A DNA stretch of 44,457 nucleotides from Bordetella parapertussis. Lineage in GTDB: Bacteria; Pseudomonadota; Gammaproteobacteria; Burkholderiales; Burkholderiaceae_B. The stretch covers positions 1 through 44,457 of the forward strand of contig CAMDEF010000035.1 in assembly GCA_945895265.1 (NCBI GenBank). Reading direction: 5' to 3'. Shown piece after piece: positions 9,034-30,916 of the stretch (positions within the stretch are counted from its first letter, which is position 1; every line of letters begins with the position of its first letter). A model generated the notes under the pieces. The model was not told where the DNA came from and searched no databases. It saw nothing but the letters and a program-made list of their open reading frames with translations. The position numbers were made by a program, and so were the translations under genes.

Positions 9034-9765
9034 ATGAGTCAAAGCAAAAATTCAAGACGGTCGTGGCTGATTGTTCCGGCTGATCATGACGATGTTGTTG
9101 CTTATGCTGGGTCACATGGTGCAGACATCGTGGTGCTTGATCTTGAGTACACCCTGGCCCCCAAAAATAAAGATCGCGCCCGCGTTGGGGTGACTGGGCA
9201 GATCGCTAAGCTGACTGCGACTGGCGCTGAAGTCTTTGTGCGTGTGGATCGCGTCACGCGCTGGGCCGATGTGCGTGCCGCCATCAGTCGTGATTTAACT
9301 GGGATTGTGCTGCCATCACCCGATGACGCGGCTGACATCGCTGAACTTGATGCGTTAATCACTACGCTTGAAAAAGAGCGCGGTGTCGAACTTGGCACAA
9401 CAGAAATTGTCTTGATGTTTGAGTCTGCAAAAAGTTTTTGGAACGCTGATGCCTTAGGCAGAGCCAGTGCCCGAGTGAGTGGGCTGGGCGTAGGGCGCAT
9501 CGATTTATCGATGACGCTTGGTACGGTGCCTCAAAACGAATTTCGACTCTATCGTTTTTTAATGACCCGAACACTTGTTGCGGCTCGGATGTTAGGCAAA
9601 CAACCGCTCGGGGCGTTTTGGCGCCCGGGCTCGCGTGGTGGTGTGGCCTCTGTCGCAGACACGATGCGCGCAGCCCGCGAGGCACGCTTATTGGGGTTTA
9701 GTGGCTGTGTCTGTGCCGTACCCGAGCAGGTCGCGCCGGTACATGCGGGTTTTGTGCAGTCATAA
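9034..9765 (+). CDS. CitE-like HpcH/HpaI aldolase family protein, short form
   Basis: 243 residues; GAGGG precedes the ATG. The TIM-barrel aldolase family cleaves or condenses hydroxyacyl-CoAs such as malyl- or citramalyl-CoA. Strand motifs are recognisable: VVLDLEYT (usual LDLEDAV has Asp where this has Tyr39), EVFVRVDR with Arg70, Glu130 in LMFESAKS and Asp157 in GRIDLSM. The last two correspond to the magnesium ligands, so metal binding appears possible. It lacks part of the C-terminal region of full-length CitE proteins (about 290-320 residues). First of three tandem paralogues; the neighbouring CoA-transferase may supply its substrate. Confidence 0.82.
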   Translation: MSQSKNSRRSWLIVPADHDDVVAYAGSHGADIVVLDLEYTLAPKNKDRARVGVTGQIAKLTATGAEVFVRVDRVTRWADVRAAISRDLTGIVLPSPDDAADIAELDALITTLEKERGVELGTTEIVLMFESAKSFWNADALGRASARVSGLGVGRIDLSMTLGTVPQNEFRLYRFLMTRTLVAARMLGKQPLGAFWRPGSRGGVASVADTMRAAREARLLGFSGCVCAVPEQVAPVHAGFVQS

Positions 9766-9780
9766 TCTGGATACTCAGCG

Positions 9781-10701
9781 ATGCCACCCTATACCCGCCG
9801 TTCTTTGATTTGCTTGTCAGTCGATGACCCAAAGCTTGCAGAAAAAGCCTTCGAGTCATGGGCCGACGCCATCATTTTAGATATTATTAAAAGCCCCATT
9901 CAAGATTGGCAGCAAGTGCTTAAAGCTAAGATGCCGACTGCTATTGCTGCCGCAGCACACGGTGGTGCTGAAGTCTTTGTACGTTTGAACGCGGGTACTG
10001 CACAAGCCGAGCTCGAGGCGACTGTGTTTACCGGATTGACTGGAGTGGTGCTGGTTGGGGTAGGGGATCGCACCGAACTCGTGCAGGCCAATGAACGACT
10101 TGAGGTTCTTGAACGCGAGCGAGGCCTAGCCATCGGCTCAGTTGAAATCGATCTTGAAATCACCACCGCCCAAGGTGTTTGGAATTCGCTAGAAATCGCT
10201 CGCGCAAGCCCCAGGGTGGGCACCATGACGATCAATGAACAAGCCTTGTATCAAGATTTAGAGATCCCCTTTGAAACAGCGCTTGAGGTCGAACCAATTG
10301 AATTTATCAAAGGTCAAATTATCACTGTTGCCACGTCGGTCGAGAGTCAGGCGCAAGGGATGAGCTATCCGTTATGCGTCTCGCAGAATGAGGTAGACGA
10401 AGCCACACTTACGAGGGCCATACGCCGAGCGCGAGATACTGGTTTTAAAGGCGCCGTCTGCGCGCACCCCTCGTGGGTCAAGGCGTGTAACGAAGGATTT
10501 CGCCCAAGCCCTGACGAAGTTGAATATTACAAAGAGGTTCGGCAAGTGTTTGCTGAAGGTTTGAAGCGCGGCCTAGCTTCAGTGCCCTTGAATGGAAAGA
10601 TGATTGATGTGCCAGTTGATTTGCGTGCCGAGGTGTACCTCGAGTGGGCAGAGCGTGTGGCCTTGCGCGATCAACAAAAAATTCAAGCCCACCAACTTTG
10701 A
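9781..10701 (+). CDS. CitE-like protein with lost metal ligands (possible pseudo-enzyme)
   Basis: 306 residues; start ATG at 9781, 15 bases after the previous stop, with only a weak ribosome site. Its fold signature follows the neighbours (EVFVRLN with Arg68, HPSWVKACNEGF near the end), so it belongs to the HpcH/HpaI-CitE superfamily. The LDLED segment is replaced by ILDIIKSP, the usual LPK segment by LVGVGD, the metal-binding Glu of IET by Thr128, and the following metal Asp region by TINEQALYQDL. A conventional Mg-dependent lyase reaction is therefore unlikely. It may be a non-catalytic subunit or have acquired another activity. The reading frame is intact. Confidence 0.72.
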   Translation: MPPYTRRSLICLSVDDPKLAEKAFESWADAIILDIIKSPIQDWQQVLKAKMPTAIAAAAHGGAEVFVRLNAGTAQAELEATVFTGLTGVVLVGVGDRTELVQANERLEVLERERGLAIGSVEIDLEITTAQGVWNSLEIARASPRVGTMTINEQALYQDLEIPFETALEVEPIEFIKGQIITVATSVESQAQGMSYPLCVSQNEVDEATLTRAIRRARDTGFKGAVCAHPSWVKACNEGFRPSPDEVEYYKEVRQVFAEGLKRGLASVPLNGKMIDVPVDLRAEVYLEWAERVALRDQQKIQAHQL

Positions 10702-10714
10702 TGAGAAAAACACC

Positions 10715-11662
10715 ATGACGCACAGAGTGGCACGCTGCACAATGTTTGTAACGCCAACTAATCCACGCTTTATCGATAAGGCTTGGACCCGAGGCGGGGA
10801 TGTTTATATTTTAGACATCGAAGACTCAATCCCCTTGGCCGAAAAAGCGCGTTGTCGTGGCTTGATTCGTGAATCCATTGCAAAGGCCAACAAAGGCGGC
10901 GCGAGCATTTATGTGCGTATCAACAAGCCGTTTGTGGATGCGGATTTACCTTGTTCGGTGTGGCCAGGCGTTGATCGGATCATGTTGCCGAAAACCGAGA
11001 CTGCAGTTGAAATGCAATACGCTCACGCGCTGATGAGTCAGCTCGAAAAGGACCACGGGGTACCGGTGGGATACATCGAACTGTCGCCCATGATTGAAAC
11101 TGCGTTGGGAGTGGTAAATATTCATGAGATTTTGTCGGCCACGCCCAGAAAGATCTGGTCAATGGGTGGGGGTACGGGCTATGACATGGCAGTCAATCTG
11201 GGCATTGAAATGTTTGTTGACTTTGATCAGTATGCCTACACCTCGTCTTATGTGGCATTGGCTGCGATGAGCTTGGGGATAGAGGCGTCCGGAGGGGTTT
11301 TTATCTATAATCCCACGGGTCGCGTGGATCAGCGTGATCATGCCCTCGAAGAGGCTGAAATCTTGCACGCCGCAGGTGTGCGTCAGATCACCGCGCTACA
11401 TCCAAACTTTATTGAGCCCTTATGTACTGGGCTTGCCCCGACTGCCGATGAAATGTCGTGGGCACAGAGCGTTTTAGAGATCTATCAAGACCTCACGCTT
11501 GCGGGCGAGTCGGTGACCACGGTTAATGGCAGGGTGGTAGATTGTTACGAATATGAGCGTGCTGTTAAAACACTCGAGTGGGGCAGGGCTTGCGCAGAAA
11601 AAGACCAATTTAAAGAAAAAGCCCTGGCTCGGTCTAATGCGTTGTTAGCAACTGATTCTTAG
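10715..11662 (+). CDS. CitE-like HpcH/HpaI aldolase/citrate lyase beta-type protein, full-length
   Basis: 315 residues from ATG 10715, 13 bases after the preceding gene; the frame is open further upstream, but that would overlap the neighbour. All active-site landmarks are intact: ILDIEDSIP (34-40), Arg68 in YVRIN, LPKTET (91-96), magnesium ligands Glu128 in MIETALG and Asp157 in GGTGYDMAV, and LHPNFIEP near the C-terminus. It is the most canonical of the three paralogues and the best candidate for the true lyase, probably of a malyl- or citramalyl-type CoA ester (inference). It is the last gene of the set; 268 bases separate it from the next Bug protein. Confidence 0.87.
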   Translation: MTHRVARCTMFVTPTNPRFIDKAWTRGGDVYILDIEDSIPLAEKARCRGLIRESIAKANKGGASIYVRINKPFVDADLPCSVWPGVDRIMLPKTETAVEMQYAHALMSQLEKDHGVPVGYIELSPMIETALGVVNIHEILSATPRKIWSMGGGTGYDMAVNLGIEMFVDFDQYAYTSSYVALAAMSLGIEASGGVFIYNPTGRVDQRDHALEEAEILHAAGVRQITALHPNFIEPLCTGLAPTADEMSWAQSVLEIYQDLTLAGESVTTVNGRVVDCYEYERAVKTLEWGRACAEKDQFKEKALARSNALLATDS

Positions 11663-16596: not shown

Positions 16597-17508
16597 TTAA
16601 CGGTTTAAGAATAATAGGCATTGCTGAGCTGTGACTTTTGCTTCTTGGATGGCGTGTTCGAGCATGCCACCATACCCCTGTCTGACAGCGCCAGCGGCAA
16701 AGACATTTTGCATACTTGTCATAAGCTTGGTCGAAGTGATGATGTGACCGTCTTTGTCTCGTTCAATGTCGTCAGGTAAAAAATCGCTGGATGGTTTGAG
16801 TCCGATATATGCGAACAACCCCGTGCAAGGGATGTGACAGGTGGTTTGATCAGCCAGCTGTTTGACTTGCACGCCCTCAACCCCCGTTGTGCCACAAATT
16901 TCTACGACTTCACACGAAGAGTGCACCAGTATTTTTTCATGCTGTGTCACGGCCTCAGTGAGATGGCTTTGCGCAGTGGGAGACTCGTGATGATGAATGA
17001 GATGCACTTGGCGACAAAATTCAGTGAGTACAAGGGCTTCTTGAAACGCAGAGTCACCACCTCCGACGACAACGACTTCTGCATCCTGATAAAGCGGGCC
17101 GTCGCAATCAGCGCAATGTGAAATTCCTTTGTATTCAAAGGCAGTCTCTCCGGGCACGTTGAGTGCCTTTAACGTTGCGCCGGTCGCGATAATCACAGCC
17201 TTGGTTTGATATGAATGTTGATCGGTCGTGAGCAAGAGCTGTTTGTCCGGCTGCGCGACAAGCCCAGTTACCATTTCAGAAAGTATGGTGGCTCCAGTGC
17301 GACTTGCTTGCATCATCAAGTCAGAGGCAAAGTCAATGCCTGAACCTTGGATAGCGCCATCGAGTTCGTTGATATTGATAATTAAGCCGCCAAACAGTTG
17401 GCTCTCAATATTGGCAACCCGCAGGCCGTGTCCCAGTAATTCGATAGTGGCCGATAAGCCGGTGACACCTGCACCAATGACAATCACGTCATAGTTGTCT
17501 GTCGTCAT
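16597..17508 (-). CDS. Thioredoxin-reductase-like FAD/NAD(P)H disulfide oxidoreductase
   Basis: 303 residues; AAGGTA precedes the ATG. The FAD motif GAGVTG is at 12-17, the redox-active pair is Cys132-Cys135 in HCADCDGP, the NAD(P)H motif GGGDSAFQEA starts at 149, and a GAVRQGYGG FAD-binding segment lies near the end. It is shorter than the usual bacterial TrxB (about 315-320) and diverges from it, so its partner may be something other than housekeeping thioredoxin. It lies 101 bases after a CoA-transferase on the same strand, and that gene is divergent from the UGSC selenoprotein operon; a role in reducing the selenoprotein is an attractive inference without direct proof. Confidence 0.88.
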   Translation of the reverse strand: MTTDNYDVIVIGAGVTGLSATIELLGHGLRVANIESQLFGGLIININELDGAIQGSGIDFASDLMMQASRTGATILSEMVTGLVAQPDKQLLLTTDQHSYQTKAVIIATGATLKALNVPGETAFEYKGISHCADCDGPLYQDAEVVVVGGGDSAFQEALVLTEFCRQVHLIHHHESPTAQSHLTEAVTQHEKILVHSSCEVVEICGTTGVEGVQVKQLADQTTCHIPCTGLFAYIGLKPSSDFLPDDIERDKDGHIITSTKLMTSMQNVFAAGAVRQGYGGMLEHAIQEAKVTAQQCLLFLNR

Positions 17509-17609: not shown

Positions 17610-18845
17610 CTAAATGATTCCGGCCTCTTTAAGCTCTTGAATTTGTTGTAGCGATAGGTGTGCGAACCTCTCAAGAATTTCGTGTGTATGCGCACCAGGA
17701 ACTGGGGCAGGCGTGTCATACGAGCTCGGTAATTGCCCAAATTTTATTGGAAACCCGGGCCCCGAGGCACCGATCGCTTGCCCAGACAAGGGGTTGACTA
17801 ACGGCACAATCATCTCTCGCTCGTGCAGTTGTTGCCATTGCAGGACTTCTTCGATGGAGCGAACTAAGCTACACGGCACGCCTACCTGATTTAGAATTGT
17901 GATGACTTCAGTTCGGTTGTATTGGGCAACCCAAGCTCCAACAATTTTGTCTATTTCGTGATTGTTTGAAATTCGCCAACTGGTCTGCAAAAGCTCAGGT
18001 CGTGTGCCTGCAAGTGCTGTTTGGCCCATGACGTCTAACAGGGCAAGCCATTCGCTGTGAGTTGCAGTGCCGATTACCAGCCATCCGTCTTTCGCTTCGT
18101 AAGTATTAAAAGGAGAGAAACGCATAATTCGATTACCCTGCCTTGCTTGCACGCCCAGCGCTTCGTAGCAGTCTATCGGTTCGTCAAACACGAGCGAAAA
18201 CAGGCAATCAGCCATGGCCACGTCAATAGACTGACCTTCTCCTGTTTTTTCTCGATTAAATAACGCAGCGGTGATGCCGTTTGAGGCAAAGATACCAGTG
18301 ATGGCGTCAGACATTGGGGTGGCTGCCTTCGCGGGTGGCCCCTCTGGGTCGCCCGACAGGCTCATCAATCCCACCGCTGCCTGAACCATCAAGTCGTAGG
18401 CTTTTGCGCTCTGATCTGGCCCAGTGGAACCGTAGCCCGTTAGGGCGCAGTAAATAATCCTGGGATTTACTTTTTTGAGCGTCTGATAATCAATCCCCAA
18501 TCTTTTTGCTACGCCGACACTGAAGTTTTCGACAACGACATCTGCGTGAGTCACGAGTTGAAGAAAAATTTCACGACCACGTTCCGACTTCAGGTCGATC
18601 GTAATTGATTTTTTTCCTCGCGCCCGTTTTAAATATGCGAGCCCCATGTCGTGCTCGGTCTGACTAGTAAAAGAGACGCCCGCAGCGCCCGCATAGGGAG
18701 GGGCAAAAGCGATAGGGTCGCCAGTTTTTGGATCATCTATTTTTATAACTTCGGCACCCATTCCAGCCAAGATGAGTGTGCATTGCGGACCCGAAAAAAA
18801 ACGAGTTAAATCCAATACGACAACGCCAGTCAGTATTTTTTTCAT
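17610..18845 (-). CDS. Class III CoA-transferase (CaiB/BaiF family)
   Basis: 411 residues from ATG 18843-18845. It has LDLTRFFSG at 11-19, GAEVIKIDDPKTGDP, the GKKSITIDLKS segment and the catalytic Asp180 in ATPMSDAITGI. It is similar in type to the formyl-CoA:oxalate and succinyl-CoA-dependent transferases, but donor and acceptor cannot be read. The start of the message lies in a 245-base gap shared with the divergent UGSC operon, so both may answer to one regulator. A short open frame in the 5' leader (18852-18941) ends 6 bases before this start. The thioredoxin-reductase-like gene follows 101 bases downstream. Confidence 0.92.
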   Translation of the reverse strand: MKKILTGVVVLDLTRFFSGPQCTLILAGMGAEVIKIDDPKTGDPIAFAPPYAGAAGVSFTSQTEHDMGLAYLKRARGKKSITIDLKSERGREIFLQLVTHADVVVENFSVGVAKRLGIDYQTLKKVNPRIIYCALTGYGSTGPDQSAKAYDLMVQAAVGLMSLSGDPEGPPAKAATPMSDAITGIFASNGITAALFNREKTGEGQSIDVAMADCLFSLVFDEPIDCYEALGVQARQGNRIMRFSPFNTYEAKDGWLVIGTATHSEWLALLDVMGQTALAGTRPELLQTSWRISNNHEIDKIVGAWVAQYNRTEVITILNQVGVPCSLVRSIEEVLQWQQLHEREMIVPLVNPLSGQAIGASGPGFPIKFGQLPSSYDTPAPVPGAHTHEILERFAHLSLQQIQELKEAGII

Positions 18846-19090: not shown

Positions 19091-20131
19091 ATGGGCCCTT
19101 CTGGATTCATCAGTGCAACGTACGAGGTGCAGGATGCGCTTGAGGCAAATGAGCTGTTTCAGCGTAACGGCTGGACTGACGGTTTGCCGATTATCGCACC
19201 GACCGAACGGGCTGTTTCACAATTTTTGGATGTCGTTCGGTTAAAGCCTGCCGATCTAATCGGCGTTGAGCCTGTTCGTCGTCGCGCGATTACGGCAGAG
19301 AAGGTGGCGATTGCTGCAGTGATGGCTGGCTGTCTTCCAGAATATATGCCAGTGATTGTGGCGGTTATTCAAGCGATGTGTAAACCTGAATTTGGCATGC
19401 ATGGCTGCACCGCCAGCACTGGTGGAAGCGCGCCTATGTTGATTGTAAATGGGCCGATTCGGACGCAATTAGGCATGAACAGCTCGCATAATGCGTTGGC
19501 AAATGCGAGTCGAGCTAACGCCACGATCGGTCGTACAGTCAGATTATTTTTGCTCAATGTCTTGGGTGGTTATCCTGGTCAGTTAGATCGCTCTACCTTG
19601 GGACATCCGGGTAAGTTCACGTTTTGCGTTGCGGAAGATGAAGAAGATAATACGTGGCTGCCGCTTTCGATAGAAAGGGGGCTCGCCACGGGCGAGTCCT
19701 GCGTGACGGTCTTGGCCGTTGAGTCGCCTCATCAAATCATGAATGAGTGGACACAAGATCCCAAAGAAATATTAGACACTTATGCAGCGGCTATTCGCTC
19801 AAATATGTTGACCTATTCGATCTGGGAGGGCAATTATGCGATGGTTATTGCCAAACAACATCGGCAACTTTTTATTGCGGCGGGTTGGGACAAGCGTATG
19901 ATTCGAGAGTACATATACGAGGTAGCGCAGGTTGCTCGTAAGGAATGGCGCACTGTTGGTAAGGCCGCCGTGGCCGGCAGAAAAGACGAAAACCGAATGT
20001 ATCACGCGTTGCGCTCGCCGGATGATTTGTTGGTGGTTGCTGCGGGTGGACCTGCGGGGGGATTTGGTGTGATTGCTCCCCCTTGGTATGGCAAGAAATC
20101 GCTTGCTGTGACTCAGAAAATAGAAGTTTAA
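19091..20131 (+). CDS. Conserved protein encoded with the UGSC selenoprotein, function unknown
   Basis: 346 residues; AAAGAGACG lies before the ATG. No signal peptide or transmembrane segment is visible, so it is probably cytosolic. It contains a GWTDGLPIIAPT motif (27-38), a central segment with MAGCLPEYMPVIVA, MHGCTASTGGSAPMLIVNGP and GHPGKFTFCVAEDEE, and cysteines at 81, 97, 106 and 179. I associate this pattern with proteins often found beside UGSC proteins, though I cannot name a reaction. It ends 23 bases before the selenoprotein start and is surely co-transcribed. Its rich Gly/Asn/Ser motifs look like an enzyme active site; the selenoprotein could be its redox partner or second subunit. 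Confidence 0.85.
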   Translation: MGPSGFISATYEVQDALEANELFQRNGWTDGLPIIAPTERAVSQFLDVVRLKPADLIGVEPVRRRAITAEKVAIAAVMAGCLPEYMPVIVAVIQAMCKPEFGMHGCTASTGGSAPMLIVNGPIRTQLGMNSSHNALANASRANATIGRTVRLFLLNVLGGYPGQLDRSTLGHPGKFTFCVAEDEEDNTWLPLSIERGLATGESCVTVLAVESPHQIMNEWTQDPKEILDTYAAAIRSNMLTYSIWEGNYAMVIAKQHRQLFIAAGWDKRMIREYIYEVAQVARKEWRTVGKAAVAGRKDENRMYHALRSPDDLLVVAAGGPAGGFGVIAPPWYGKKSLAVTQKIEV

Positions 20132-20154
20132 TTGGGTTTTAACGGAGAACTGGG

Positions 20155-20685
20155 ATGACAATAATCGTATTAGATCCGCGCTTGAGTGCAGAGGGCGAAG
20201 CACTTCGACTGGCGCCTGCCGCCAGATCCCTGGAGGGGGCAGTGATTGGCATGATCGATAATGCAAAAATCGGGACCGAAAGGTACTTTGATTTTCTCGC
20301 AGAAATTTTGACTAAAGAGTACGGCGTGCGTGAATTTATTCGAGGCCGCAAACCTGATGCGACCCGCCCAGTCACTCCAGAGATGTTGGCCTCGATGAGT
20401 GGGGCAGATGCGATTCTTTCTGCCATAGGCGACTGAGGGAGCTGCTCCTCGTGCAGTTTGCACGATGCGATTGCGGCCGAGCGCTTGGGCATTCCTGCTG
20501 TTGGGATTATGACCGATCGTTTTGAAAGAAGTGCGAAGATTGTGGCCGATATGAATGGTTTGCCAGACTACCCATTTATCATGTTGACACACCCTGTCGC
20601 AAATAATAGTGATGAAGTTCTTAAGCAAAAGGCAGTCGATTCTGCCAAGCAGATCGTTGAATTATTAACGCAGCGACCCGCTTGA
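20155..20685 (+). CDS. UGSC-family selenoprotein (in-frame TGA read as selenocysteine)
   Basis: One continuous 176-residue frame interrupted only by TGA at 20434-20436, which would encode selenocysteine 94. Reading through gives the motif U94-G-S-C97-S-S-C100 followed by SLHDAIAAERLGIPAVGI, matching what I know of UGSC-family proteins, in which Sec or Cys occupies this position. The N-terminal half has VLDPR and AVIGMIDNAKIG, and the C-terminal half LTHPVA, so conserved family sequence lies on both sides of the TGA. GGAG sits 7 bases before the ATG. A bacterial SECIS hairpin follows the TGA immediately, and a strong terminator follows the gene. Molecular function is unknown; the UxxC pair indicates redox chemistry. 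Simple gene finding would split it at the TGA. Confidence 0.92.
20434..20465 (+). promoter_or_regulatory. Bacterial SECIS element directing Sec insertion
   Basis: Counting the U of UGA as 1, a perfect 6-bp stem UCGUGC/GCACGA (bases 16-21 and 27-32; 20449-20454 and 20460-20465) closes a five-base loop AGUUU. The loop G and U fall at bases 23 and 24, the positions of the SelB-contacting G23 and U24 in the E. coli fdhF element (from memory). The loop starts 18 bases after the UGA, within the usual bacterial range, and has G in its second position. The bulged U17 of fdhF has no obvious equivalent here. Confidence 0.88.
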
Positions 20686-20700
20686 GGTAAATTCTTCAGT

Positions 20701-20731
20701 GAAAATGGGGCGCTGTTGTCGCCCCATTTTC
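20701..20731. terminator. Bidirectional rho-independent terminator
   Basis: A perfect 12-bp inverted repeat: GAAAATGGGGCG (20701-20712) and its complement (20720-20731) around a 7-base loop. The stem ends in AAAA/TTTT, so a U-run forms in transcripts of both strands. It lies between the convergent selenoprotein gene (ends 20685) and Bug-protein gene (ends 20751) and should terminate both. Confidence 0.9.
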
Positions 20732-20750: not shown

Positions 20751-21737
20751 TTATTCGAGCTGTTGTACGCCAGAATCTTTAACCACCTTTGTCCATTTTT
20801 TTGTTTCTGATTGAATGTACGAGGCAAACCATTCAGGTGAACTGCTTTTTAATTCAGCGCCAATCAGCTTGTCTTTAAAGCCAGGCTCAGCGATGATTTT
20901 TACGACGGCTTTGTTCAGCTCGGTGATGATGCCTTTCGGTGTGCCTGCCGGAGCGAGTAGCCCAGCCCAACCGACTGCTTCAAAACCCGAAAATCCAGCC
21001 TGTTCGACGGTGGGTAAATCGGGTAGCGCGCTCGCTCGCGTTAAGCTGCCCACGGCCATGGCTTTCAGTCTGTCGGCTTTTAAATACGGAATAATTAACG
21101 GACCTGTTTCAAACATCACTGAAGTCCGCCCACCTAAAAGATCAGTGACGGCTGCCGGCGAACTTTTATACGGGATATGAGACATGTTGACTCCCGCGGT
21201 GGCCATAAAGAGTTCCATCGATAGGTGGTTGCTCGCACCACTGCCTGCCGTACCAAAGTTCACCTTGCCCGGGTGAGCTTTTAAATAGGTGATTAATTCT
21301 TGAATATTTTTCGCAGGTAACTCAGGATTCACGACTAAGAAAAATGGCACGATCAATGTTAACGAGATCGGCTCAAAATTCTTGACTGGGTCATAAGGCA
21401 GTTTTTTATAAAGCGATGGATTGACAGCCAGACTTCCCGAGGAACCCATGAACAGCGTATAGCCATCCGCTGGCGCTTTGGCTGCGAGCTCGGTGCCGAT
21501 AATACTCGCAGCCCCTGGTCGATTTTCGACATAAAAGCTTTGGCCATACATTTCGGTTAAGCCCGCTGCGATCAAGCGAGTGGCCTGATCGGTTGCTTGT
21601 CCTGCCTGAAACGCAACAATGATTTTTACCGGTCGATTTGGATATTTGTCCTGAGCGAACGCTTGATTTGAAAATTGCACTAGGCAGAGACCTAGCCCAT
21701 TCAAAAATAGTAATATTTTTACGACGCTTCTAAGCAT
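20751..21737 (-). CDS. Bug/TctC-family substrate-binding protein
   Basis: 328 residues; CGGAGA precedes the ATG. An N-terminal signal peptide of about 28 residues ends at QAFAQD. Hallmarks are YPNRPVKIIVAFQAGQATDQ (the usual PGG turn is AGQ), PGAASIIGTELA and PADGYTLFMG. Periplasmic carboxylate receptor; no TctA/TctB genes occur in the window. It lies 135 bases after the MmgE/PrpD gene on the same strand, so it may be the last gene of the CoA-transferase/MmgE group or have its own promoter. The terminator at 20701-20731 ends its message. Confidence 0.92.
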   Translation of the reverse strand: MLRSVVKILLFLNGLGLCLVQFSNQAFAQDKYPNRPVKIIVAFQAGQATDQATRLIAAGLTEMYGQSFYVENRPGAASIIGTELAAKAPADGYTLFMGSSGSLAVNPSLYKKLPYDPVKNFEPISLTLIVPFFLVVNPELPAKNIQELITYLKAHPGKVNFGTAGSGASNHLSMELFMATAGVNMSHIPYKSSPAAVTDLLGGRTSVMFETGPLIIPYLKADRLKAMAVGSLTRASALPDLPTVEQAGFSGFEAVGWAGLLAPAGTPKGIITELNKAVVKIIAEPGFKDKLIGAELKSSSPEWFASYIQSETKKWTKVVKDSGVQQLE

Positions 21738-26572: not shown

Positions 26573-28708
26573 ATGAAAGCCGGGCCTCTGTCATCTATTT
26601 TGGTGGTTGAGCGTGCCGGTCGCTTAGCGGCCTCGGTCGCCGCAGGTTTGTTGGCAAACTTAGGCGCACGAGTCATTTGTTTCGAAGAGGTGTGTGGGCG
26701 TCCAGAGGCAGACCCGCTTAACTGGCATGAGCACCCTCTATCGCAGCAAGGGAAAGAGAGTGTCAAGCCAAGTCTGCAGGGTGATAGTCGAAGCCAGCAA
26801 TGGGTTGAGCTTGTGGCTCGGGCAGACGTTGTGATTGAATCAATTGATTCGCCGGCAGTAAAGAACTTGCCTGTTGGATCGCGGTGCAATGCGGCAAAAG
26901 TGCATGCGGTCTTTACCGACTTAGGGCTGGCGCAACAGTCCACGCAAAAAAAAATCCTGAATGAATTTGAACTGCAAGCCTTAACCGGCGCGATGGCTGT
27001 CACTGGCCACGCTGGGCAAGCGCCTCAAATGATTGCGACTCCAATTCTTGAGCTGCTAACTGGTATCAACGGCGCCACTTCAATCATCGCGGCTTTGCGT
27101 GCAAAGGCGAATGAGACTGCCGTGCTAGATCTGGCAATATATGACAGTGCAGTAGCGTTTCTCGGAACCTTTCATAGCACGGCGTTAGCAGACCCCGCGC
27201 GTCAATATCGAGACGGTTGTCGCCACCCCTTGATTGCGCCTTGGAATAGTTATCCAACCGCTGATGGCAGGATCGTGTTGTGCTCGACGACCGACGTGCA
27301 CTGGCTTCGCATTGCAACGTTGATTGATCGGCCAGAGGCGATTGTTGACCCCAGATTTTCGACCACTGCCGCGCGGGCGAGAAACGCTGCCGCGGTCGAC
27401 GCGTTCATCGAGCCTTGGACACGTGCGCGCAGCACGCAATCGGTACTGGAAGCCTTAGAAAAAATTGCTATTCCGTCCGGCATGATTGCGTCAATTGAAG
27501 ATATGCTGCAAGAAGAGCGGCGATATCAGCATGTGCGCGAAGTCAGGCGCGACGATAACAGTGTGATTCAGTGCCCGATTAATTTGGTTGATTTTGTAGT
27601 TTCTGCTCATTGCCCGATTGAATCGGTTGATCTTTTAAAGGCCACTGAAAGTCAGGTTGAGCTCGTCGACCTTTCTCAACCTAGTATAGAAACGCCAGTG
27701 AACCGAGCGAAGCCAATAAATGAGCTGACGGGTGCTCTGGATAAACCGTTGTCGGGCATTCGTGTAATTGAGATTGGTCCATACACCGCAGGTCCGTATG
27801 CTGGCCGACTGCTTGCAGACCTAGGTGCCGACGTCATCAAAGTTGAACCTTTTGGTGGCGAAGTGTCGCGCAAATGGTTGCCAAGTTTTAACGGCCTCAG
27901 TGGGTATTTTCAAAATTACAACGCGGGCAAAAAAAGTCTTTTTTTAGATTTTCAAAAACCTGACGATGGACAGAGGCTCTGGCAATTACTCGCGACAGCA
28001 GACGTACTCATTCAGAATTTAGGACCAGGGGCGCTCGCGCGAGCAGGCTTTGGTTCAGAGGCTGTTTTAGCTCAACGACCCGATTTAATCTATTGTTCGA
28101 TTTCTGGTTTTGGTGCATCGGCTAAGGTACGTCTGGCGGTAGACACCGTGGTTCAGGCCGCCAGTGGTGTGATGGCACTCGTGGGTAACGATGCCGCCAC
28201 GCGTGAACAACGCGCCTTAAAGATCGGGCTGTCGATTGCTGACCTAATTGCGGCGCATGTCTGTGCGTTATCGGTTGTTGCTCGGCTTGGAGTGCAAGGC
28301 GCTGCGGCGCAGGGCGGTCCGGTGGATATTTCGATGTTGCGCTCTTTAGCGTGGATGACGCAGCTCGCGTGGTCTCAGCCTAACGACGACTTGCCCAAAG
28401 GCGTTACGCTTGAGTGCACGGATGGTTATGTATTTTCTTTAGATTGGCAGAAGCTGCAAAGCCGTTCGTTCAGCGCAACGACCTCACTGATATCAGTGAG
28501 GGCTATGCTCGAGCAGTTTAGCGTTGATGGTATCTCGGGTGTCGAGGTACGTGAGCCTTATGCAGTATTAACAACTGGCTTGACGAGCGAAAGACACCTG
28601 TTGCAATGGGTACAAGATCTCGACACGCGAGTCCCTATTTTGACGACACCACACCGCTGGTCAAACATCGTGCCAGGGGTGCATTCTTGTGTGATGGCAC
28701 TTGCTTGA
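26573..28708 (+). CDS. Double-domain class III CoA-transferase (tandem CaiB/BaiF fusion) 1
   Basis: 711 residues, roughly twice the usual size. Domain 1 spans about 1-340; domain 2 begins near 390 with LSGIRVIEIGPYTAG and LGADVIKVEPFGGE. The catalytic Asp is present in domain 2 (Asp557 in LSIADLIAAH), while the equivalent position of domain 1 is Glu160 in TPILELLTG. Domain 1 also lacks the canonical N-terminal strand motif (LVVERAGRLAA). Class III enzymes normally work as interlocked dimers, so the fusion may be an intramolecular dimer with one active site, as in DddD-like proteins (known architecture, weak analogy). Its ATG directly follows the TAA of the acyl-CoA dehydrogenase. Confidence 0.87.
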   Translation: MKAGPLSSILVVERAGRLAASVAAGLLANLGARVICFEEVCGRPEADPLNWHEHPLSQQGKESVKPSLQGDSRSQQWVELVARADVVIESIDSPAVKNLPVGSRCNAAKVHAVFTDLGLAQQSTQKKILNEFELQALTGAMAVTGHAGQAPQMIATPILELLTGINGATSIIAALRAKANETAVLDLAIYDSAVAFLGTFHSTALADPARQYRDGCRHPLIAPWNSYPTADGRIVLCSTTDVHWLRIATLIDRPEAIVDPRFSTTAARARNAAAVDAFIEPWTRARSTQSVLEALEKIAIPSGMIASIEDMLQEERRYQHVREVRRDDNSVIQCPINLVDFVVSAHCPIESVDLLKATESQVELVDLSQPSIETPVNRAKPINELTGALDKPLSGIRVIEIGPYTAGPYAGRLLADLGADVIKVEPFGGEVSRKWLPSFNGLSGYFQNYNAGKKSLFLDFQKPDDGQRLWQLLATADVLIQNLGPGALARAGFGSEAVLAQRPDLIYCSISGFGASAKVRLAVDTVVQAASGVMALVGNDAATREQRALKIGLSIADLIAAHVCALSVVARLGVQGAAAQGGPVDISMLRSLAWMTQLAWSQPNDDLPKGVTLECTDGYVFSLDWQKLQSRSFSATTSLISVRAMLEQFSVDGISGVEVREPYAVLTTGLTSERHLLQWVQDLDTRVPILTTPHRWSNIVPGVHSCVMALA

Positions 28709-28750
28709 TCGTAGTCGATATTGGGCGTGCACTTTGCGGAGATTCTTTTA

Positions 28751-30916
28751 GTGAAAGACACCCACTTGCTTAAAAAAATAAAAGTATTAGAAGCTGGTAA
28801 TCGCCTTGCTGTTGCAATCTGTGGTGGGTTGCTCAGAGACGCAGGCGCCGAGGTCACTGTTATCCAGACTGACGATCGCTTGATTGAAAAATGGCAAGCT
28901 GACAAACGCTATTTAGTCGGAAAGGAATATGACCCTAAGGTCTTGACGCTTGAAGAGTTTCGAACGCAAGCACTAAATACTGACATCCTTTTACTGTCGT
29001 CTGATACGGATCCCGCTTGGGTGGCTGCTGCAGCGCAGCAGGCTAAAGCGACAGCGAAGGAGTTGATTGTTTTAGATCTCACTGCCACGGGCTCTTTTGG
29101 CCCGTTAGCTGGCGTTGCCTTTTCTGACCTGCAGATCCAGGCTCTCTGTGGTTTGATCGATACAACGGGTGCGTCAGGGCAAATTTCCGAACCTGTCGGA
29201 TTTCCTTTTGCAGAGGTGTCTGCCGCGCTATATGGCTCGGTGGCAGTGCTGGCTGCGCTTCACGCGCGCGATCGGTCTGGCGAGGGGCAGGCAATTGAAG
29301 TGGCGTTATACGACACCGCAGTCAACGCCATGATGACCTTCTTACCCAAGGCGTTTGCTGGTCATGCGGTCTCACGCATCGGTAACCGACACCCTCTGAG
29401 TGCACCCTGGAACGCCTACGGCACAAAAGATGGTTGGGTGTTGGTGTGTACGGTCTCGAATGAACAATGGGTCAGACTCGCTCAAGCGATCGATCCGGCG
29501 CTTGCGGTGAACGCTCGTTATGCCAACTTAAATGACCGTGTGCGTTGTGTGGATGAACTTGATCAAATCTTGTCAACATGGACAAGCCAATTAACTACGG
29601 CCGAATGTCTTGCGATTTGCGAAAACTCTGATATTCCCGCTGGGCCAATTCAAGCGATTGACAAGTTAACCCTTGATCCGAACGTACAACACCGAAAGAT
29701 GATTCAAAGTCTTAACGGTTCGCAAGATTTGTCAGACTGGTTGCCTGGGGTGCCTTTTAAACAGACGTTGAATGGATTGGTGGCGCAGGTTGAGTCTGGG
29801 GTGACAACCTTCGAGCCTACAACCGACCCTAGCGCAGGACGAACCCTTCCACTTGCTGGTCTACGCGTGGTTGAAGTTGGTCAGTACACCACCGCTCCCT
29901 TGGTAGGTAAAAATCTGGCCTCGTTAGGTGCTGAAGTTATTAAGGTTGAGCCGCTTGAAGGTGATGCCTCGAGAGCATGGACGCCTGGGCAGGGATCGAT
30001 GGGTTATTTTTTTGCGCTCAGTAACAGCGATAAATTGATCGTCACACTAGACTTGAAATCGAAAGAAGGTGTTGAGCAGTTTTGTGCTCTATTGGGCTCG
30101 AGTGCGGTGTTGGTTGAAAATATGCGTCCGGGCGCCTTAGGCCGAGTCGTCAATAAAATCCAATCCCTAGAGTCTTTAAACCCATCGCTAATTCATTGCG
30201 CCATCTCAGGTTTTGGGGCCGACTCAGCTTATCCGAATCGACCCGCCTTTGATACTGTGGCACAGGCGATGTCTGGAATCATGGATCTGACACGACGAAC
30301 CGGTACCCCAATGAAGGCTGGTATCTCGGCTGCCGATATTCTTGGTGGACAAGTGGCATTGTTTGCGATTCTGTGTGCTTTACGTCAGCCCTCGACTCGC
30401 ACTAGGCGAGGAGGGTCAATTGATGTGGCTATGCAAGATGTCGGCGTCTGGGCAACCCACCCAGTTTGGTTTGCTTCAAAGGAGGCAAGTGCGTATCTGA
30501 TTGCCTCGTGTTTTGACGGTTCTGTTTTGTTTCAAGGTACCGATCAAGCTTTGCAACAGTGGGCTCTTAGCCTTTCTGTTGTTATTCAGAAGCAAGCGTT
30601 TGTGACGCCGTTGACAGTCAACGAGCTTATGTCGACTTGCTCAACAGAAAACGTTGTTGGTGTAAAAGTGCATTCGTTGACCGAGGTATTGGCGCACGAG
30701 CATTTTAAGGCGAGGTGCTTGGGGGTCGGTCGCGATCAAGACGGTACGTTTTGGCCCTTAATTAACAGCCCCTATCGGCTGCAAGTCACGCCAACGCAAA
30801 GCTATCGAGTACCGGGTAAAGTCGGGCAAGATAACGTCAGGGTGTTTGGTCACCACGACGCATCTGCCGCAACCATTCAGACCGATAGCCGCGCAGGTAC
30901 TGCACGGGATGTTTGA
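28751..30916 (+). CDS. Double-domain class III CoA-transferase (tandem CaiB/BaiF fusion) 2
   Basis: 721 residues from GTG 28751 (GGAG nine bases upstream); TTG 28721 or GTG 28727 are alternative starts. Domain 1 covers about 1-350 and domain 2 starts near 368 with LAGLRVVEVGQYTTAP and LGAEVIKVEPLEGD. Domain 2 keeps the catalytic Asp (529, in ISAADILGG); domain 1 has Glu155 at that site (PFAEVSAALYG). The same layout as the preceding gene, 42 bases upstream, points to duplication of a fused ancestor followed by divergence. The last 80 bases overlap the converging OYE gene at 30837. Possibly the two fusions form a hetero-oligomer. Confidence 0.86.
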   Translation: MKDTHLLKKIKVLEAGNRLAVAICGGLLRDAGAEVTVIQTDDRLIEKWQADKRYLVGKEYDPKVLTLEEFRTQALNTDILLLSSDTDPAWVAAAAQQAKATAKELIVLDLTATGSFGPLAGVAFSDLQIQALCGLIDTTGASGQISEPVGFPFAEVSAALYGSVAVLAALHARDRSGEGQAIEVALYDTAVNAMMTFLPKAFAGHAVSRIGNRHPLSAPWNAYGTKDGWVLVCTVSNEQWVRLAQAIDPALAVNARYANLNDRVRCVDELDQILSTWTSQLTTAECLAICENSDIPAGPIQAIDKLTLDPNVQHRKMIQSLNGSQDLSDWLPGVPFKQTLNGLVAQVESGVTTFEPTTDPSAGRTLPLAGLRVVEVGQYTTAPLVGKNLASLGAEVIKVEPLEGDASRAWTPGQGSMGYFFALSNSDKLIVTLDLKSKEGVEQFCALLGSSAVLVENMRPGALGRVVNKIQSLESLNPSLIHCAISGFGADSAYPNRPAFDTVAQAMSGIMDLTRRTGTPMKAGISAADILGGQVALFAILCALRQPSTRTRRGGSIDVAMQDVGVWATHPVWFASKEASAYLIASCFDGSVLFQGTDQALQQWALSLSVVIQKQAFVTPLTVNELMSTCSTENVVGVKVHSLTEVLAHEHFKARCLGVGRDQDGTFWPLINSPYRLQVTPTQSYRVPGKVGQDNVRVFGHHDASAATIQTDSRAGTARDV

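Follow-up and report, generated by a model that had tools for sequence, protein, structure and literature searches.

The 44,457-nucleotide (nt) contig CAMDEF010000035.1 of a Bordetella parapertussis assembly, the whole of which is hereafter called the window, contains on its plus strand a reading frame that starts at ATG 20155, meets one in-frame TGA at codon 94 (20434–20436) and continues to the next in-frame stop, TGA 20683–20685. The initial annotation of this sequence had proposed that the two halves of the frame form a single selenoprotein gene of the UGSC family preceded by a ribosome site, and the latter can be read by eye as GGAG at 20144–20147, 7 nt 5′ of the ATG. When the frame was translated through the UGA, the 176-residue product matched the Pfam family UGSC (PF24696) from residue 5 to residue 173 (E = 7.1e-49; 166.7 bits against a cut-off of 25; profile positions 2–172 of 172), and because the match spans the UGA, both halves belong to one gene, whose product would carry the motif Sec94-Gly-Ser-Cys97, where Sec is selenocysteine. 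The threshold of the NCBIfam equivalog NF041046 (UGSC_fam) was missed by 3.2 bits (121.8 against 125, with C written for U), and the window protein is filed under PF24696 only.

Two collections of homologues were compared, namely a near set of 61 UGSC genes, consisting of that of the window and 60 from 19 relatives, and 80 named loci, which were found in named genomes via the partner protein described below. Among 101 genomes, over which all genome counts are raw and uncorrected for relatedness, UGSC exceeded the cut-off in 19 (17 with Sec and two with Cys forms), a weak match in G046 (E = 7.9e-4, below the cut-off) having been excluded, and a single genome held up to 19 paralogues; this genome, G065 of the Burkholderiales, has 19 UGSC copies and at least 20 copies of the partner. 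The codon aligned with codon 94 is TGA in 59 of the 61 near-set genes, window included, and encodes Cys in the other two, while in the named loci the motif codon is TGA in 72 of 78 and TGC in five (L144, L171, L174, L189 and L191), the position not being covered in one. The Cys homologues that the initial annotation had suggested looking for at residue 94 therefore exist. In alignment A1, which comprises 42 of the 61 sequences after near-identical rows and rows with X were dropped, only residue 94, Gly95, Cys97 and Gly112 are invariant; all 42 sequences, that of the window included, carry Sec or Cys in the first place of the motif and Cys three residues on, so that Sec94 and Cys97 are the sole invariant chalcogen residues of UGSC in this alignment.

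The machinery for selenocysteine accompanies the gene in its relatives. The nearest genome, G001, which shares 38% of the sampled 31-letter words of the window, possesses selA, selB, selC and selD; its UGSC domain is identical to that of the window across 165 residues, and the genes around it are ordered as in the window. A SelA match was found in 18 of the 19 UGSC genomes versus 26 of the 82 others, and a tRNA-Sec above 60 bits and SelD above its cut-off were each found in 17 of the 19. In the named genomes, where the SelA search took 48 of the 80 loci, SelA exceeded the cut-off in 46 of the 48 genomes carrying the UGSC/partner pair; the two misses are a metagenome-assembled genome and the archaeon Natrialba asiatica, whose UGSC is a Cys form.

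A bacterial selenocysteine insertion sequence (SECIS) hairpin, which had also been annotated, is predicted on the plus strand from 12 nt 3′ of the UGA, with a 7-bp stem (20449–20455 with 20459–20465) and the apical loop GUU (20456–20458). It was recognized by eye and in a pairing test over the family, in which 522 of 592 stem cells were paired over 74 genes, whereas 500 synonymous-codon shuffles averaged 353 and never exceeded 394; the eight stem pairs, seven of which the window forms, were defined from the tested sequences themselves, with the shuffles as the control. The 74 genes remained from 133 after reduction by near-identity to 82 and removal of eight from a subfamily with a different hairpin shape. 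Folding of single sequences was ambiguous: one 42-nt stretch gave the SECIS hairpin with a z-score of −0.95 against synonymous shuffles, which alone is not decisive, and a 42-nt stretch beginning 3 nt earlier took a different minimum fold (z −0.69), so the SECIS call rests on the family comparison. Of 116 distinct genes, 105 have the start of their first predicted apical loop 18–22 nt past the UGA, and Rfam at its gathering threshold gave no match within the window. Together with the family match and the conserved TGA, the pairing confirms, at the level of sequence analysis, the prediction that the frame 20155–20685 encodes a UGSC selenoprotein read through the UGA.

The third Cys of the motif region, residue 100, had been assigned to the redox center as well, an assignment that has to be withdrawn. 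UGSC homologues have C, W, G, A or S at residue 100, and its codon sits in the SECIS stem. Of the 74 genes, 56 form the pair concerned as C-G and 15 as G-C, and in the 12 rows listed the G-C form goes with Trp. Because the residue varies and its codon lies within the stem, this Cys is linked to the RNA and does not count as a conserved redox residue. As for the annotated terminator, an 11-bp inverted repeat (20702–20712 and 20720–20730), a likely terminator between convergent genes, is indeed visible by eye, but a consensus terminator scan did not list the repeat at 20702–20730.

A gene encoding a 346-residue partner protein (19091–20131, plus strand) ends 23 nt 5′ of the UGSC start. Searches of Pfam and NCBIfam at E 0.001 matched nothing in this protein, but its relatives number in the thousands (7711 of 8000 candidates scored). 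Its profile A2, built from 41 partners of loci inside the same set of 101 genomes (near-identical, X-containing, short and in-frame-TGA rows dropped), found relatives at E 1e-10 in exactly the 19 genomes with UGSC above the cut-off, at most 22 candidates being scored in G017, G065 and G072. For 60 of the 61 near-set genes, UGSC and the partner share a strand and are no more than 2 kb apart: in 27 the partner follows UGSC within one fusion protein, in 17 it is a separate gene 3′ of UGSC and in 16 it lies 5′ of UGSC. The one remaining gene has its partner at a distance of 3.5 kb. In 78 of the 80 named loci, UGSC lies within 1.9 kb of the partner on the same strand, and the two misses end at most 300 nt from a contig end. 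UGSC is, in other words, one half of a conserved two-gene unit. Asp30, Arg148 and Glu182 of the partner are invariant in A2, Asn120 and Asn143 nearly so, while Cys81 is not strictly conserved, and we infer that the partner is the substrate-holding part of the unit, with Arg148 and Glu182 as candidate residues. Its best chains in a fold search were fumarase-like proteins and cyclic amide hydrolases, all of them weak. The Global Ocean Sampling paper names a fusion of UGSC with a domain called Unknown_1 (PMC2398784), and this domain is probably the partner.

The AlphaFold2 model of UGSC (predicted local distance difference test score 92.6) has five strands alternating with helices in a Rossmann-like arrangement, with Sec94 placed just before helix 95–110. 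Comparison by hhalign with 42 GrdB/PrdB-like sequences gave P 4.5e-8 and a probability of 94.9 in an alignment of 68 columns that places Sec on Sec, and masking of the motif left the register unchanged (P 7.5e-6); an earlier comparison with 20 close PrdB-like rows had given P 6.4e-5 and a probability of 64, and the best of 16 decoy families reached P 0.0064. GrdE-like sequences gave P 0.0041 against UGSC, better than every decoy, and Gly_reductase (PF09338) was touched by three of the 42 UGSC members (best E 0.037). PF07355, the family of GrdB/PrdB, does not match the window protein, for which searches listed up to E 10, with filters that drop most matches above 0.1, gave only UGSC and PEP-utilizers. 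Judged from these profiles, the UGSC domain is distantly related to the Sec-bearing domain of GrdB/PrdB without belonging to PF07355. Foldseek with the model returned four matches at E ≤0.001, all with TM-scores below 0.5 and of common alpha/beta folds; no thioredoxin or GrdB chain was among the matches listed, though such a listing does not exclude either, and a sequence search of solved structures gave chance-level matches only. The proposal that the partner is a GrdE homologue was examined too and found unsupported (P 0.19 against six GrdE-like sequences).

PF07355 itself exceeded its cut-off in one of 185 genomes of the class and in 31 of 48 named UGSC-bearing genomes. The nearest genome, G001, encodes a PrdB-like selenoprotein of 411 residues with the motif VUPLCTC (L091:733–1968, minus strand), close one-TGA versions of which occur in 19 of the 101 relatives. 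GrdB-like genes of full length that contain an in-frame TGA were also seen in Burkholderiales, Rokubacteria and Chloroflexi (L194–L199), their motif being UGTST in five of six and UGTC in L199; GrdE-like frames, recognized by motif only, lie nearby, and L194 has a TctC-like frame besides.

Selenocysteine decoding in these genomes may involve a distinct SelB. SelB exceeded its cut-off in 44 of the 101 genomes, and when 54 SelBs of these 44 were placed in a midpoint-rooted tree, with the partial selA-linked SelBs of G006 and G009 left out, one clade (support 100/100) brought together a member from each of the 17 Sec-UGSC genomes and one further SelB, the second of G013, whose assembly is fragmented and yielded no UGSC. 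None of the other 24 UGSC-free genomes in the tree and neither of the two Cys-UGSC genomes contributes to the clade, which thus includes one of the 27 SelB genomes that lack a Sec-UGSC. In the genus of the window, the clade SelB, termed SelB2, occurs in 14 of 14 UGSC genomes and lies at most 160 nt from the partner in ten; in G028 a partner fragment stands beside it. A selA-linked SelB is also found in 11 of the 14, the drafts G010, G018 and G019 being those in which it was not. The two SelBs, compared in seven genomes, are 42–48% identical in the first 350 residues and 22–27% in the remainder, diverging most in the C-terminal, SECIS-binding part. In the tree the copy from G024 groups with the one from G058, which belongs to a different genus (support 100/99), so that more than one acquisition is likely. 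Our search of the open-licence literature turned up no description of a second SelB linked to UGSC.

On the minus strand of the window at 16597–17508 lies a gene for a thioredoxin-reductase (TrxR)-like flavoprotein with a CADC motif (Pyr_redox_2, E 4.4e-37; TIGR01292, 226.8 bits, below the cut-off of 343.45), which is a putative electron donor. Relatives at E 1e-50 or better occur in seven of the 101 genomes, all of them Sec-UGSC genomes; they are present in all six genomes with a window-type UGSC (domains 64–100% identical) versus one of the 95 others, and ten Sec-UGSC genomes are without a close relative. The gene lies at most 120 nt from UGSC, the partner or SelB in L051, L082, L157, L050 and L080, adjoins SelB2 in G003, G017 and G024, and follows the UGSC match by 50 nt in G058. 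In G065, selA, selB, a TrxR-like gene and tRNA-Sec stand in a row (L267, G065:C1:630000–642000).

Other neighbors are a CoA-transferase III gene (17610–18845, minus strand; PF02515), the order of which is kept in G001 (L041), and a convergent gene for a TctC-type solute-binding protein (20751–21737, minus strand; PF03401, E 4.8e-70). TctC genes lie near many near-set loci, and one TctC BLAST cluster is present in seven of the 80 named loci; as a clue to the substrate, however, TctC was set aside as near background, since nine of ten counted genomes hold 96–105 scored matches, 105 being the most that could be scored (386 candidates in the 6.2 Mb of G065, and only three in G058). LysR genes of one BLAST cluster lie at most 130 nt from UGSC or the partner in nine of the 12 loci having them (eight organisms), and this adjacency suggests that the locus might be induced by a substrate. 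Elsewhere in the window, positions 9034–11662 hold look-alike tandem genes, which we take to be HpcH/CitE-like, two of which cluster by BLAST and the middle one of which (9781–10701) was recognized by eye, and positions 26573–30916 encode successive proteins of 711 and 731 residues, each of which resembles, on inspection by eye, a double CoA-transferase III module.

The initial annotation is thus supported as to the UGSC selenoprotein, which has Cys forms and, in relatives, sel genes as it had suggested looking for, and not supported as to the third Cys, while the two-gene unit, the distinct SelB and the TrxR-like flavoprotein had been overlooked. Taking these into account, we propose, with a probability of roughly one half, that the UGSC selenoprotein serves as the catalytic member of a two-protein enzyme in which Sec94 and Cys97, fed by the flavoprotein, reductively cleave a small substrate held by the partner. 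Arg148 and Glu182 of the partner might hold a small organic substrate, which the selenolate of Sec94, at the N terminus of its helix, would attack so as to cleave a carbon–heteroatom bond reductively. Cys97 would then resolve the adduct to an Se–S bond, freeing the product, and the TrxR-like flavoprotein, itself reduced by NADPH, would reduce that bond and keep the pair in its reduced state. Separate paralogue pairs would serve separate substrates, and the distinct SelB would decode the UGSC genes in the relatives. Whatever in this mechanism goes beyond the conservation of Sec94 and Cys97 and their pairing with these proteins, we infer.

Another possibility, though an unlikely one, is that Sec94 acts as the nucleophile of a non-redox reaction, such as that of a lyase, isomerase or racemase-like enzyme, with acid/base groups from the partner. 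The Rossmann-like fold would suit such a role, and Asp_Glu_race was touched by one of the 42 members (E 0.018) and Asparaginase_C by four (best 1.1e-4), but the invariant Cys97 at UxxC spacing and the co-occurrence with the TrxR-like flavoprotein both point to redox turnover. Somewhat less probable still is a thioredoxin-like protein or general disulfide reductase, as the UxxC motif and the label Trx-like, given without a function in the accessible text of PMC2398784, would imply; structure prediction gives a Rossmann/flavodoxin-like alpha/beta domain with five strands, the profiles point to kinship with GrdB/PrdB, and a constant partner together with so many paralogues per genome is unlike a general disulfide reductase. 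Selenols react fast with electrophiles, peroxides and metals, and redoxin and GPx genes lie a few kilobases away in seven near-set loci, so defense or detoxification against such compounds might also be considered; we regard it as improbable because the LysR and transporter neighbors and the many divergent copies per genome suggest substrate-specific metabolism. That the TGA is a sequencing error or the mark of a decayed gene can practically be dismissed, given the same TGA across both collections and a SECIS pairing above all 500 shuffles, even though public protein sets mostly hold UGSC in pieces (seven of 18 matches cover just 53%).

A wider and decidedly tentative picture would be that UGSC pairs make up an extensive branch of the GrdB/PrdB-like selenol reductases, one that uses a new protein for substrate binding and spreads with its own Sec-decoding factor, and that in the genus of the window the SelB acquired with UGSC, beside the resident one, has made two SelB/SECIS pairs for one codon. 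The apical loop is at +20 in 83 of the 116 distinct UGSC genes and at +18 in 17 of 17 rows of the PrdB-like gene of the genus. Two observations speak against a clean split of the pairs: a +18 loop is also seen in one UGSC subfamily of the same genomes, so that loop position alone cannot separate UGSC from PrdB-like SECIS elements, and G065 has a single SelB, of the UGSC-associated clade, together with a PrdB-like selenoprotein. Were the picture true, nature would offer an example of specialized Sec decoding, with two SelB lineages in one cell and one of the two tied to a single selenoprotein family. UGSC is among the commonest environmental selenoproteins, accounting for 8.2% of selenoprotein genes in a marine survey according to the accessible text of that report (PMC9402790). 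The constant partner, the likely electron donor and the link to glycine and proline reductases make its function a problem that biochemistry can address with three named proteins.

Compared with the UGSC family as known (PF24696, NF041046), the window protein and its homologues agree in sequence, in the UGSC motif, in the replacement of Sec by Cys and in the occurrence of fusions with a second domain, while the constant partner, the kinship with GrdB/PrdB, the distinct SelB and the TrxR-like protein are not described in the accessible part of PMC2398784. The two-gene organization has a parallel elsewhere: GrdB and PrdB work with a second subunit, GrdE or PrdA. The likeness of UGSC to them extends to the aligned Sec-bearing segment, but UGSC is a single 176-residue domain and its partner is not GrdE-like. 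Finally, the SelB2 of the window's genus retains the G-domain motifs that were looked for, as in other bacterial SelBs that act with a SECIS, and differs from them in that it coexists with a selA-linked SelB.
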